Shown: positions 20,722-27,811 of the stretch, one piece after another
How the letters are laid out: each line of letters starts with the position of its first letter
Position numbering within the stretch: position 1 is the first letter of the stretch
From: Planctomycetota bacterium
GTDB lineage: Bacteria > Planctomycetota > Planctomycetia > Gemmatales > Gemmataceae
Length of the DNA: 64,000 bases
Assembly: GCA_029777335.1 (NCBI GenBank)
Contig: JAKOSN010000121.1
Span: 1 to 64,000, forward strand
Direction: 5' to 3'
Translations under genes and position numbers: made by a program
Notes under the pieces: generated by a model
The model's database searches: none
What the model was told of the DNA's origin: nothing
The model's input: only the letters and a program-made list of their open reading frames with translations

Positions 20722-20745
20722 GGTCGGTTTTCTCTCTGAAAGCGC

Positions 20746-20781
20746 AAAACGCCAGGGTGCCCACCTGCGCCCTGGCGTTTT
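20746..20781 (+). terminator. Intrinsic terminator after aldehyde dehydrogenase gene
   Basis: Perfect 12-bp stem AAAACGCCAGGG (20746-20757) and CCCTGGCGTTTT (20770-20781) with a 12-base loop; A and T runs on both sides make it usable in both directions. The ACGCCAG core recurs in two other terminators of this window. Confidence 0.85.
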
Positions 20782-20823
20782 GGGTTTGATCCCTCTCCCT
20801 CTGTCAGCGAAGAGTAAGCGCTC

Positions 20824-21078
20824 GTGAGCACCGAGGATGCTCCCAAAGTTGGGGTGGAACGCCGCCAGTGGCCGTTTCTGGTGCGGTTCATCCTCTGGGG
20901 GCTGGGCTCCCGCCGGTCGGCACTGGCCTGTTTCTGGCTTACCGTGGTGGTGACGGGGAGCAGCGCGGTGGCGAGCTTTCGCTATCCCCTGGCGCTGGTG
21001 GGGGTGGCGTGGATCGTTGGGGTGATCGGGTACGGGTGGGCCATTCGCTGGGTGGACCGCCACAGCCGCTGGAATTGA
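20824..21078 (+). CDS. Small membrane protein, unknown function
   Basis: 84 residues with GTG start at 20824. After a polar N-terminus (STEDAPKVGVERRQ) there are two predicted membrane helices: about 38-54 (ACFWLTVVVTGSSAVAS) and about 57-75 (PLALVGVAWIVGVIGYGWAI), with Arg/Lys-containing ends consistent with an N-in hairpin. No recognised family. It stands alone between the aldehyde dehydrogenase terminator and the structured RNA candidate. Confidence 0.6.
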   Translation: MSTEDAPKVGVERRQWPFLVRFILWGLGSRRSALACFWLTVVVTGSSAVASFRYPLALVGVAWIVGVIGYGWAIRWVDRHSRWN

Positions 21079-21116
21079 CCGGGAGCACCTGTCGAACTTG
21101 GTCACCGGGTGAGCAC

Positions 21117-21246
21117 AAAAAAAGCCATCCGGCCCGCTGTACCACCTCTCCCATGGCCAGCGCGAACCGGATGGCTCTCACTCGCTTGCTCCGTGGAGCA
21201 AGTTCAACCCGTCCCCGACCCTCAGGCCGGAGGAACGGTTTTTATT
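21117..21246. ncRNA. Candidate structured non-coding RNA with a terminator at each end
   Basis: Three stable hairpins occur within 130 bases and no gene overlaps. First, AGCCATCCGG (21123-21132) pairs with CCGGATGGCT (21167-21176), with inner CGCTG/CAGCG and CCA/TGG helices; on the minus strand it is followed by seven T. Second, CTTGCTC-CGTG-GAGCAAG (21185-21202), a 7-bp stem with a tetraloop. Third, CCGTCCCC... with GGAGGAACGG (21209-21238), followed on the plus strand by TTTTTATT. Both orientations therefore end in a terminator, and strand is undecided. It matches no RNA family I know (not SRP, 6S or tmRNA by eye). It could also be two bare terminators of opposite strands with a hairpin between. 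Confidence 0.45.
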
Positions 21247-21689
21247 AAGGCAATTTGTGGGCCAATCGCTGCGGTTCAACCGGCAGGAATGATTTTTTAG
21301 TCTCAAGTATTAGCTATTATTGAATTTGCATCTCTTCATTTCTTCTCGTTTTCCTGGTTCTCTTCACAAGGACTGTTTTGGTTTGCCTGGTTGTAAGGCA
21401 AAAATGCTTGCAAAGTAAGCAAGTCTGGTTGCTGGAAACAGCCCTTTGCGCCATCAACATGATCATGATTCATGGTGCGCAGGAAGCGCGCTGCGCCTCG
21501 ACCGCAGCAAGTTCGATTGTGCGACCCAGGGAACCAGCGCAGCGCGGATTGCGCCCTTCTTTGAGTGGAAAACGACAAGGGGCCGAACCGAAGAGGGAGA
21601 ATGGGGTGGTTTGCCCCGCTGGACACAGGGTCGTAGAATAACTACGGTCCTGGGTTCTCCAGGATGGACGCAAGCGCGAGAGGCATGGT
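21247..21689. other. A+T-rich leader region upstream of cysE
   Basis: 443 bases without a credible gene. 21285-21420 is distinctly A+T-rich compared with the window, a likely promoter zone, and contains GCTTGC/GCAAG (near 21410-21422). Close to the gene, CGTAG-AATAA-CTACG (about 21632-21646) forms a short hairpin. Short frames here show no protein-like composition. Together with the structured RNA this makes a 611-base gene-free gap. Confidence 0.5.
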
Positions 21690-22649
21690 ATGGCCACCGA
21701 TTTTCGTCTCAAGGAGACTTTGCCGGAGGTCACGGAGGCGATCGTCGCCACCTACACCGAGTGCAGCCGAACCAGTCATCTCGGTCACAAGCCGTTACCC
21801 AGCCGTGAGATTATCGGCGAGGTTCTCTGTGACTTCATGGATATCCTGTATCCGGGATACTGGCGTCGGCAGAACCTTCATATCGGCAATGTCGAATATC
21901 ACGTCGGGGATCTGATTGATCGCCTGCACGATACCCTGACCCAGCAGATTGGGCGGGCTCTGCGCCATGAATATCACTGCAGCGCGGGGGAAGAAGGGCC
22001 CGTGCTCGATCTGGAGGGACTGGCACAGCAGAAGACGGTGGAACTGCTGCGCAAACTCCCCGACATTCGCATGATCCTGGAGCAGGACGTGCAGGCGGCC
22101 TACGAGGGCGATCCCGCCGCCAAAAGCTACCACGAGATCATCTTCTGCTATCCGGGGGTGGAAGCGGTCTCGATCTATCGTCTGGCCCACGAGATGCTTC
22201 TGCTCGGCATCCCTCTGATCCCGCGCATGATGACCGAACACGCGCACGCCAAAACGGGGATCGATATCCATCCCGGCGCTCGCATCGGTCCGGGGTTCTT
22301 CATCGACCACGGGACGGGGGTGGTGATTGGCGAAACCTGTGACATCGGCTGCAACGTCAAACTCTACCAGGGGGTTACGCTGGGTGCATTGTCGTTCCCA
22401 CGGGATGCGGAAGGAAACATCATTCGTGGGATGAAGCGCCATCCCACCCTGGAAGACGATGTGGTGGTCTACGCCAATGCGACCATCCTGGGAGGGGACA
22501 CCGTCATCGGGCATCATGCCGTGGTGGGGTCCAGTGTGTGGTTGACCAAGAGTGTTGCACCTTACACGGTGGTGTCGATGGACAAGCCGTCGCTGCGCAT
22601 GCGCGGCCCCGAGACTCGTACCGAGTCGCCCGTCGATTTTCAGATCTGA
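21690..22649 (+). CDS. cysE: Serine O-acetyltransferase
   Basis: First step of cysteine synthesis: acetyl-CoA plus L-serine gives O-acetylserine, cytoplasmic. 319 residues, the long form. The N-terminal half is helical; the C-terminal left-handed beta helix shows hexapeptide repeats [44 protein letters not shown] and [24 protein letters not shown]. The His/Asp pair of the active site is in IDHGTG. No cysK is adjacent, and the gene is isolated. A stem-loop at 22662-22725 follows the stop. Confidence 0.92.
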
Positions 22650-24942: not shown

Positions 24943-27642
24943 TCACGACTGCAGCCGTCCCATGCGGCGGAGCAGGAGTTTCAGATCGCTGATCACGTCT
25001 TTCTTGCGTTCCGGGCTGCGCGTCGGCAGCAAGAACGCGGGGTGATAGGTGCACAACACGGGGATGCCCTTGTAGTCATGCAGCCGTCCACGCAGGCGGC
25101 CAATGAATTCTGTTGTGCCCAGCAGGTTCTGCGAGGCACATCCCCCCAGCGCCACCAGGTAGCGCGGGCGGACCAGTTCGAGTTGTCGCTCCAGGAACTC
25201 GCGGCAGTTGGTCACCTCGTTGGTCTGGGGGGTGCGATTGCCCGGGGGACGGCACTTGATCAGATTGCAGATGTAAACCTCTTCGCGACTGATCCCAAGA
25301 GAGTGCATGATGCTGTCCAGCATCTGCCCGGCCGCCCCCACAAAGGGAGTCCCCAGGCGATCCTCGTCCGCACCGGGAGCCTCGCCGATGAAACAGATCT
25401 CGGGATCGAGCGGACCAGTGCCAAAGACCGTCTGAGTGCGCGAACGAACCAGCCACGAACACCGGGTGCATCCGCTCACCTGGGCGGCCAACTCGTCCAG
25501 GGCCTGCTGGCGTTCTTCCAGGGTCATCTCGCTGACGGACTTTTGAAGAGGAGTCCCCACGCTCAGGGTGGGCAACGGGACTTTGGGGGCCGCGGGAGGA
25601 GGGGAGGCCGGCACCGTGGCGCGCGGGGCAGCCCCCGGAGTCAACCGATCAAGGTGGCTGAGCACCGTGGCAAAGTCCTGCGGTCGCTGGGCGGGGTTGT
25701 CTTCCAGGCACGCTTCCAGAAGCTCAGCGAGTCCGCCTGGGATGCTGCGCCAGTGACGCAGCAGCGGTTGCGGAGTCTGAAAGAGGGCGTAGCAACAGGT
25801 GCGGGCAAACCCGTAGATGTCCGAACAGGGACGGACGGGAGTCCCGGGGAGTTTGCCCATTTGCTCCGGAGCGGCGTAGTCGAGCGTCCCAGCGATGCTG
25901 CTCCCCACCAGGGTCGCCGAGGTGGCGCGCAGGGTCTCCACTCCGCTGCGGCGCAGAGCCAGACCAAAGTCGATCAACTTCGCCTGCCAGCGCCCACCTT
26001 CCTGACGCACCAGCAGGTTCGCCGGTTTCACATCGCGATGGAGAATGCCGCGCGCGTGAGCCGCCTGTAACCCCTCAACCATCTGCCGCGCCACCTGGAA
26101 GAGATCGTCCACCGGAAGCGGTTTCTCCCGCGCATGATCCTCCAGGGTCATGCCATCGAAGAAATCCATCACCAGGTAGGGGCGTGCATCTTCGGTGGGG
26201 CTGGCAAAGCCGCAATCCTGCAGGCGGATGATGGAGGGATGATCGATCTGACGCAGCAGCTGCGCCTCGCCAAAGACCTGATCGACGTCGCGTTCGAGAT
26301 CATCGCCGGTGAGGGTTTTCACCACCACCTCGGCGTTCATGTACTTGTGCCGACAGAGAAAGGCCACCCCAAAGCCGCCTGCGCCCAGGATGCGCTGGGG
26401 CTGGAATTTATTCATGGGGAAGGGGGAGAAGCGTGCGGGATCGAGCCGAGCCGCCTCGCGGATCTCCTGCAGGGCGGTGGTCCAGTCACGCCGTTCCAGG
26501 GCAGCGCGGAAGGCATTCATGTGCGCCTCGGCCTGCGCCCTGGGATCGCCGACCATCCCCGCCACCATGGCAAAATCAAGCTGGGCGGCCTGAAAATCGC
26601 CGGCGGCCACTTCCAGCTTGCCGATCGCATGAAGCAGAGCCGGGAGTTGCTGGCGTTTCTCCTCGGGGAGATTGCGATAGCGGCCGACCAACTCCTTCAC
26701 CAGCTGGCGCTCGGTGTCATTGCGAATCGACAAACTATCACGCGGCCGCAACTCGGTGTGCATCAGATCGAGGCGTCGTTGCATCTCGACGACGGCAGTG
26801 TAGATGTCGCGCGTCTGTTCGCTTTGACGTTGTTGCTCAGCCTGGATGTCGAGCACCGTGTCGTGCGTGGCGGTCACTGTCACCTGAACGTCCGCGAGCA
26901 TCCGTTCGAGTTGATGTGCTTGCTCGCGGAAGAGCTGATGCAGCCCGGCAAACGCTTGATCCTGCGCCTGGCGGAGCGAGTCGAGCTGAGCAAACGACAG
27001 TCCGCGAAAGAGCTTTTCATCTTCCTCCACAGAGCGACGGAAGAAGTAGCGGGCGGCGATCACCAGGAGCGAGGAGCCGCGTTGGGGCCGAATGGCGACA
27101 AAGGCGGCCAGGTTGACGTGGCCGGCGGTGCGCAGGTCCTCCGCGACCTGGTCGAGCGCGGCTCCCTCGGCTTCCAGAACACTTTGCGGATCGCCAAAGC
27201 GGGCAAAGGCCCCGGCCTGGCGGGCCAGCGCCTCGGGATCCAGACTGCCACCCGTCAACAGGTCGGCCTTGGCGGCGGCGCGCAGTTCCCGCAAACAATC
27301 ATGGCGAAACTGAGTCTTGCCCGAGATCTCCGCCAGCGAGCAACCGTCGAGGAAGGGACGCACCAGTTCGCGAAACGCGCGGTCCTCGCCGGAACTGAGC
27401 ATCACCTTGCAGCGATCCCAGAGCGAATCTCCGGCCAGGGCGACTTCAAGCGTTTTCCATGCCTGCGCATTGGCACGCAGCAGGGCGTCGTTGAGCCGCT
27501 GACTGTTATCCATGAAGCGCTGCGTGAGGAACGTGGCGACCCCCTCGATGGCGCTCGCTCCGGGGGTGCACCCCAGCGCCGAGCAGGCTCCGCCAATCAT
27601 CTGTTGCAGAGCCAGCGCACACATGTTCTGGGAAATACGCAT
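24943..27642 (-). CDS. Ser/Thr protein kinase fused to family-4 uracil-DNA glycosylase
   Basis: 899 residues in one uninterrupted frame; ATG 27642 follows GGGAGGGGGAG. Residues 1-410 are helical with coiled-coil segments (about 230-330) and no membrane helix. Kinase domain about 415-665: GAGGFGVAFL (420-429), ATP-binding Lys 442, HRDVKPAN (535-542), DFG (558-560), GTLDYAAPEQ. After a Pro/Ala linker (about 670-715) comes a complete family-4 uracil-DNA glycosylase (about 716-899): Fe-S cysteines C725, C728, C797 and C813, motif A GEAPGADEDRLGTPFVG from 753, and YHPAFLL from 866. The glycosylase should excise uracil from DNA; the kinase partner or trigger is unknown. In relatives, family-4 glycosylases are normally separate proteins (known to me, not searched). 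Confidence 0.9.
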   Translation of the reverse strand: MRISQNMCALALQQMIGGACSALGCTPGASAIEGVATFLTQRFMDNSQRLNDALLRANAQAWKTLEVALAGDSLWDRCKVMLSSGEDRAFRELVRPFLDGCSLAEISGKTQFRHDCLRELRAAAKADLLTGGSLDPEALARQAGAFARFGDPQSVLEAEGAALDQVAEDLRTAGHVNLAAFVAIRPQRGSSLLVIAARYFFRRSVEEDEKLFRGLSFAQLDSLRQAQDQAFAGLHQLFREQAHQLERMLADVQVTVTATHDTVLDIQAEQQRQSEQTRDIYTAVVEMQRRLDLMHTELRPRDSLSIRNDTERQLVKELVGRYRNLPEEKRQQLPALLHAIGKLEVAAGDFQAAQLDFAMVAGMVGDPRAQAEAHMNAFRAALERRDWTTALQEIREAARLDPARFSPFPMNKFQPQRILGAGGFGVAFLCRHKYMNAEVVVKTLTGDDLERDVDQVFGEAQLLRQIDHPSIIRLQDCGFASPTEDARPYLVMDFFDGMTLEDHAREKPLPVDDLFQVARQMVEGLQAAHARGILHRDVKPANLLVRQEGGRWQAKLIDFGLALRRSGVETLRATSATLVGSSIAGTLDYAAPEQMGKLPGTPVRPCSDIYGFARTCCYALFQTPQPLLRHWRSIPGGLAELLEACLEDNPAQRPQDFATVLSHLDRLTPGAAPRATVPASPPPAAPKVPLPTLSVGTPLQKSVSEMTLEERQQALDELAAQVSGCTRCSWLVRSRTQTVFGTGPLDPEICFIGEAPGADEDRLGTPFVGAAGQMLDSIMHSLGISREEVYICNLIKCRPPGNRTPQTNEVTNCREFLERQLELVRPRYLVALGGCASQNLLGTTEFIGRLRGRLHDYKGIPVLCTYHPAFLLPTRSPERKKDVISDLKLLLRRMGRLQS

Positions 27643-27811
27643 GATTCTCCCCCTCCCGCGTCTCTCCATTCGCGGACGATCCTGTCCGGCGATCCAGCTT
27701 GATGGAGTTGATATTACCACCAGAATGCGCGGCTGCAATGATGGTAGCGAGAATCGCGGAGTGGGGCTTTTCTGAGCACTGCCGAGAAAGAGAAGTCAGG
27801 ACCAACGAGAC

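Follow-up and report, generated by a model that had tools for sequence, protein, structure and literature searches.

A predicted small-RNA family of the Gemmataceae with a sigma-54-type promoter and an invariant terminator loop: a candidate decoy

Results and discussion

The intergenic patch at positions 21117-21246 of the window (the whole 64,000-nucleotide stretch of planctomycete DNA analysed here) is, with high confidence on sequence grounds, a minus-strand small-RNA gene with a sigma-54-type promoter. The gene, its strand, its structure, its membership of a family and its promoter box are each well supported by the comparisons described below. As to function, we propose that this is a sigma-54-controlled small-RNA gene whose product acts as a decoy, a statement that, taken as a whole, we consider about as likely to prove wrong as right.

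A predicted minus-strand small RNA

On the minus strand, 21117-21246 has a predicted fold of -70.4 kcal/mol (z -6.73), a stability reached by none of 200 shuffled sequences; the plus strand folds at -52.8 kcal/mol (z -4.50). A first-pass annotation had read three hairpins and a seven-T tail here, within a gene-free gap of 611 bases. The hairpins are present, the tail lies on the minus strand, 3' of the hairpin 21179-21120, and the gap has the length given, running from the stop of the ORF at 20824-21078 to an ATG at 21690. All three hairpins fall inside a predicted RNA of about 122 nt (Table 1), whose 5' end we infer to lie near 21238, 12 nt below the -12 C of the promoter box, and whose 3' end is placed at the T-run. 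A second, divergent copy is found in the same genome (G000:C130:4660-4738), and there too the box is present. The window holds no tRNA or tmRNA. A coding origin was considered and rejected: none of the overlapping ORFs matches Pfam, and the changes seen in the conserved part preserve pairing.

The first-pass annotation also allowed for a transcript from the plus strand and described a terminator facing each way. The plus-strand alternative fares poorly, in that the family model scores 19 bits on that strand versus 87.2 on the minus strand, and in that the closest relative (G035) retains the box, the three hairpins and the loop but is missing the plus-strand T-run TTTTTATT. The terminators likewise part company: the minus-strand T-run is found family-wide, while the plus-strand run, though it exists, is probably incidental and not a feature of the family. 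It is possibly the terminator of the ORF at 20824-21078.

Table 1. Features of the element and its surroundings (window coordinates unless a locus is named)
Feature	Position	Strand	Remarks
Predicted small RNA, about 122 nt	21117-21238	-	Fold -69.1 kcal/mol, z -5.55
Hairpin 1	21209-21238	-	Present in G035 too, sequence altered
Hairpin 2	21185-21202	-	Longer in G035
Family-defining terminator hairpin, then T-run	21120-21179	-	Covariation; R1 match 21110-21190, 87.2 bits
Apical loop GGGAGAGG of terminator hairpin	21145-21152	-	Core GGAGAG in 66/66 aligned hairpins
T-run TTTTTATT after hairpin 1 (21209-21238)	21239-21246	+	In A+T-rich stretch just downstream of the -12 box
Sigma-54-type -24/-12 box TTGGCCCACAAATTGC, GG-N10-GC	21250-21265	-	10 of 12 scored positions match consensus
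Small protein gene	20824-21078	+	Homologues in 5 other genomes among 119 searched; no Pfam match
Sigma-70-like promoter match ahead of cysE	21611-21639	+	Consensus match only
cysE, serine O-acetyltransferase	21690-22649	+	Divergent from the small RNA; PDB chains of that name, E 6e-132; synteny
Predicted opposing RNA	L163 1501-1575, L164, L165 (G015:C791:5345, G001:C1:6091264, G010:C3:985533)		Divergent from the sigma-54 RNA

Covariation and the invariant loop

Covariation among relatives, which the first-pass annotation had proposed as a check, was looked for and found, and the reading as a non-coding RNA stands. A first alignment, A1, comprised 23 terminator hairpins, in which 11 of 18 pairs show double-sided changes; the covariance model R1 was built from it. 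Aligning 66 hairpins to R1 gave the alignment A3 (its rows are thus fitted to the model), from which a second model, R2, was made. Across A3, 94.3% of the cells of the 18 pairs are paired, and 261 double-sided changes are spread over 17 pairs, so the pairs that had merely looked compensatory in a single sequence are real for the terminator hairpin. The covariation score is 0.696 versus 0.245 for shuffled alignments, none of 500 shuffles reaching the observed score, and in slid-alignment controls the paired cells drop to 30-41%. The proposal of a new minus-strand non-coding RNA is supported by this covariation, by a promoter box that lies upstream at a consistent position and outside the models, by recurrence in most Gemmataceae, and by the lack of an Rfam match (none at the gathering threshold, and only unrelated chance matches at relaxed thresholds).

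While the stem varies, the loop does not. The core GGAGAG is found in all 66 rows of A3 and the octamer GGGAGAGG in 61, an invariance that is partly circular in that the rows were found with loop-containing models and matches without the loop were removed. Those dropped as plain terminators comprise five loci entries (two in L105, one in L108, two in L117), four matches in the rest of the phylum (L098-L101) and eight of the twelve outside Gemmataceae in the class-wide search described below. Stem changes nevertheless reach the base pairs next to the loop: more than 20 versions of the closing 4-bp helix occur (e.g. ACCA/UGGU, UCCG/CGGA, GUCA/UGGC, CCAG/CUGG, ACGA/UCGU), and GGAGAG is unchanged. 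In 672 kb around the Gemmataceae matches the octamer occurs 112 times, 62 of them inside model matches. Beyond these matches, four occurrences lie in hairpins of at least 4 pairs: two are first hairpins of family RNAs, one is the complement of an opposing RNA (see below) and one is apparently due to chance. Near model matches, the loop hairpin is almost confined to RNAs of the family.

A sigma-54-type promoter

Upstream of the predicted RNA lies a box of the sigma-54 type (Table 1). It falls just outside the coordinates of the first-pass annotation, in which box, invariant apical loop and conservation were all absent. Boxes were scored on 12 positions of the -24/-12 consensus with a threshold of at least 9, and lie outside both search models. 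After eight second hairpins had been set aside, such a box was found upstream of 58 of 61 units, comprising 20/20 loci used for R1 and 38/41 that were not; downstream windows of equal size gave 0/61, and the rate in shuffled sequence is about 2.5%. A second set of units, used for no model, has the box in all 26 that could be judged, leaving out L195 (a repeat of a known unit), three L209 matches (transcript cut by the end of the locus) and the second L196 hairpin. A natural control is provided by chance carriers of the 17-mer CATGGGAGAGGTGGTAC among other bacteria and archaea, none of which (0/16) has a sigma-54 box. The box stands 50-129 nt upstream, and sigma-54 is encoded in 87 of 95 Gemmataceae genomes, that of the window (G000) among them. 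From these observations we infer that transcription of the RNA depends on sigma-54.

A search for activator sites upstream of the units returned no dominant motif, the sequence TGTCACA being present in 6 of 56 sequences versus 0.9 expected. Separately, a dyad-like GTCTCAAG...TTTGCATC at 21300-21332, upstream of the box in the window, is a candidate activator site; it was spotted by eye and resembles GTCACAA...TTGTGAC stretches in a similar place in L119, L129 and L137.

Distribution and variation in planctomycetes

When the region 20800-21720 was compared with 119 related genomes, the element was matched in 18 others at 78-91% identity, the matching stretches being much shorter than the query and their flanks often dissimilar. 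At E <= 0.001, R1 matches 59 of 95 Gemmataceae genomes; across 245 other members of the phylum it gives four weak matches, none with the loop. At E <= 0.01, R2 matches 71/77 sampled Gemmataceae genomes versus 12/220 other members of the class, the loop having been checked in the fetched units and not in each R2 match of this search. Four of the twelve have the loop, all of them Isosphaeraceae, and the other eight are plain terminators. (The genome family f3, which we call Isosphaeraceae, includes G085, which we take to be Isosphaera pallida.) In a separate sample of Isosphaeraceae, 9/41 genomes have matches and 5/41 have true loop hairpins, each with an upstream box scoring at least 10. These comparisons support a conserved RNA family that is frequent in Gemmataceae and rare in Isosphaeraceae. 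Among its hosts is the cultured Zavarzinella formosa (G010), with nine model matches.

The anatomy of the units varies. By a strict count of 88 units, a single loop hairpin is found in 53, two in 29 and three in one, and five have none; 28 units open with GGC-GARA-GCC, a possible GNRA-capped mini-hairpin. The largest array is in an Isosphaeraceae genome (G089), where five loop hairpins of 7 to 25 continuous pairs, all with the nine-base loop AGGGAGAGG, lie on one predicted transcript of about 870 nt from a single box. Elsewhere whole units are repeated, as at L107 (G008:C1:584910-586532), where four stand in tandem with a sigma-54 box each. In 4/5 cases the Isosphaeraceae loci (L226-L231) also have another conserved hairpin, whose loop is C-rich (about GGGTTGCCTCGCACGACCCCCCC) and which stands downstream of the sigma-54 box and ahead of the GGGAGAGG hairpin (e.g. 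L230 5061, L228 4944 and 5158).

What might the loop bind?

Our proposal is as follows. Once some enhancer-binding activator fires, sigma-54 RNA polymerase would start at the box 21265-21250 and make an RNA of about 122 nt ending at the terminator 21179-21120, whose hairpin would present the invariant apical loop (N)GGGAGAGG on a stem that is free to vary. The RNA would then be a decoy: its loop would capture a factor acting in trans, most probably a protein that binds RNA, and this capture would relieve or impose control on other messages while the sigma-54 signal lasts. That the loop stays fixed as its stems vary, and that some transcripts repeat it, points towards a partner acting in trans. 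As to the nature of this partner, Hfq (PF17209) was detected in none of 95 Gemmataceae genomes, the same search being positive in 5 of 14 control genomes, and CsrA was found in all 95, with up to nine matches per genome and eight in that of the window; on this account a decoy for an RNA-binding protein is our first choice. We nonetheless put the capture mechanism itself at an even chance. Counting against it are the poor fit of the obvious candidate, CsrA, to the loops (see below), the partly circular invariance of the loop noted above, the single loop of most units (53/88), which is modest for a sponge, and a predicted loop-complementary RNA in three genomes, which fits base pairing too. As a separate observation, the csrA paralogues of Gemmataceae fall into at least two clear sequence classes.

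The main rival, which we regard as possible but unlikely, is that the RNA acts by base pairing without Hfq, the loop GGGAGAGG serving as a seed for CCUCUCC(C) in target messages. A loop invariant at the level of the octamer does look like a seed. Moreover, a predicted divergent RNA in three genomes (G001, G010 and G015) has an unpaired CCACCUCUCC just 5' of its own terminator hairpin (13 to 15 pairs, loop GGYACUAAA), and could anneal to the loop region (duplex energy -21 to -26 kcal/mol); such an opposing RNA could be a target, or it could silence a decoy. However, the CCACCUCUCC pattern occurs once in each of just 3/95 Gemmataceae genomes (control matches, 0), and identical repeated loops, of which G089 has five, are more natural for titration. 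Nor was a conserved target found: csrA leaders were tried as pairing targets and rejected, CTCTCC being present in 3 of 40 csrA upstream regions, which is about chance. One of these sites is ACCTCTCCC, 43 nt before the csrA gene of Zavarzinella.

A strict CsrA sponge of the CsrB/RsmZ type, in which each loop would use its GGA to bind one of several CsrA paralogues, is in our judgement improbable. It has in its favour the presence of CsrA and absence of Hfq noted above, and a GGA in the hairpin loop in 66/66 rows. Sigma-54 promoters are also enriched at csrA in Planctomycetia, according to the accessible part of a published survey (PMC12316311). Against this, sigma-54 boxes are not clearly enriched upstream of the 40 csrA genes examined, which cover two paralogue classes: boxes of at least 9 precede four genes (2.0 expected) and boxes of at least 10 precede one (0.4 expected). 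The loops themselves fit CsrA poorly. The motif ANGGA is present in just 18/66, and the GAG that follows GGA, which CsrA is not known to demand, is as fixed as GGA itself.

Returning to the decoy, a more specific version can be put forward, tentatively, as one that we think somewhat likelier to fail than to hold. The loop GGGAGAGG may be the recognition site of a not-yet-described post-transcriptional regulator, with the RNAs of one to five loops as its decoys, and in three genera the opposing RNA (CCACCUCUCC plus terminator) may neutralise the decoy. If true, this would amount to global riboregulation in planctomycetes that lack Hfq, and it would have no relation to Hfq, ProQ or the standard kind of CsrA control. 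If the loop does bind a new protein, the hairpin offers a direct route to its identity.

Neighbouring genes

At 32 of 59 loci cysE is the divergent neighbour of the RNA (with a gap of 141-534 bp in the 30 listed); at six others, all lacking cysE, that place is taken by a formyltransferase of the tetrahydromethanopterin pathway. On the downstream side, secA follows directly on the same strand in 14/59 loci. Could the element then act in cis, as a leader or attenuator of the gene that follows, secA in some genomes? The 14 loci in which the SecA gene begins just downstream would suit this. At the remaining loci, however, that of the window among them, a different gene follows or the gene lies on the opposite strand, and two to four units can stand in tandem; since downstream genes vary between loci, the RNA is not tied to any one of them, and we consider a leader very improbable. 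Least credible of all is a mere terminator, or a bidirectional terminator pair, of neighbouring genes: a terminator does close the element and a gene on the plus strand stops at 21078, but no minus-strand gene enters the element, cysE points away from it in every syntenic locus listed, and an invariant loop with a box 50-129 nt upstream is not a terminator trait.

Two features of the surrounding window may be recorded here. A 21-base inverted repeat at 20740-20787, 3' of an aldehyde dehydrogenase gene and with outward T-runs on both strands, is a likely bidirectional terminator. On the minus strand at 24943-27738, a single ORF combines serine/threonine protein kinase and uracil-DNA glycosylase domains (Pfam Pkinase and UDG).

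Comparison with known systems

In the accessible literature on planctomycete and Gemmata small RNAs, sigma-54 and CsrA (PMC12316311, PMC9029176 and PMC2864571, in part; most subscription papers fall outside this coverage), no description of the element was found. Little was found there on planctomycete small RNAs at all, and the Gemmataceae genomes searched are without detectable Hfq. A conserved family that combines a promoter class with a fixed loop and has cultured hosts is of interest in that it gives a handle on post-transcriptional control in planctomycetes and on the role of sigma-54 in these bacteria.

Parts of the family's design have counterparts elsewhere. Qrr1-5 of Vibrio pair with mRNAs using Hfq. 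They are sigma-54-transcribed small RNAs with enhancer-binding activators and several copies per genome, as far as the accessible sources describe them, a pattern that the present RNAs may share; their loop and structure, however, are unrelated to those seen here, and the Qrr covariance model of Rfam gave no match. In RepG of Helicobacter, a bacterium without Hfq, the active site is the terminator loop, which is C/U-rich and targets G repeats. Terminator-loop RNAs of this type resemble the family, but the family loop is G-rich.

CsrB/CsrC and RsmY/RsmZ carry repeated hairpins with GGA in the loop. CsrB and CsrC titrate CsrA, as stated in the accessible text of PMC4682653. Compared with these RNAs, the present family has a longer fixed loop (GGAGAG), in which ANGGA is the exception (18/66), a sigma-54-type promoter, and usually one or two hairpins.

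A parallel in kind is with CrcZ and CrcY of Pseudomonas and Azotobacter, which the accessible part of PMC6292655 describes as RpoN-dependent non-coding decoys whose repeated motifs sequester Hfq-Crc. Sigma-54 (RpoN)-type control of a non-coding decoy with repeated motifs is what the two systems would share. The CrcZ/CrcY motif, however, is unpaired, A-rich and directed at Hfq, whereas here the candidate site is a G-rich apical loop, in genomes of which 0/95 encode a detectable Hfq. Decoy RNAs dependent on sigma-54 are thus known in kind from CrcZ/CrcY; what is new is the absence of Hfq, the host group and the loop.
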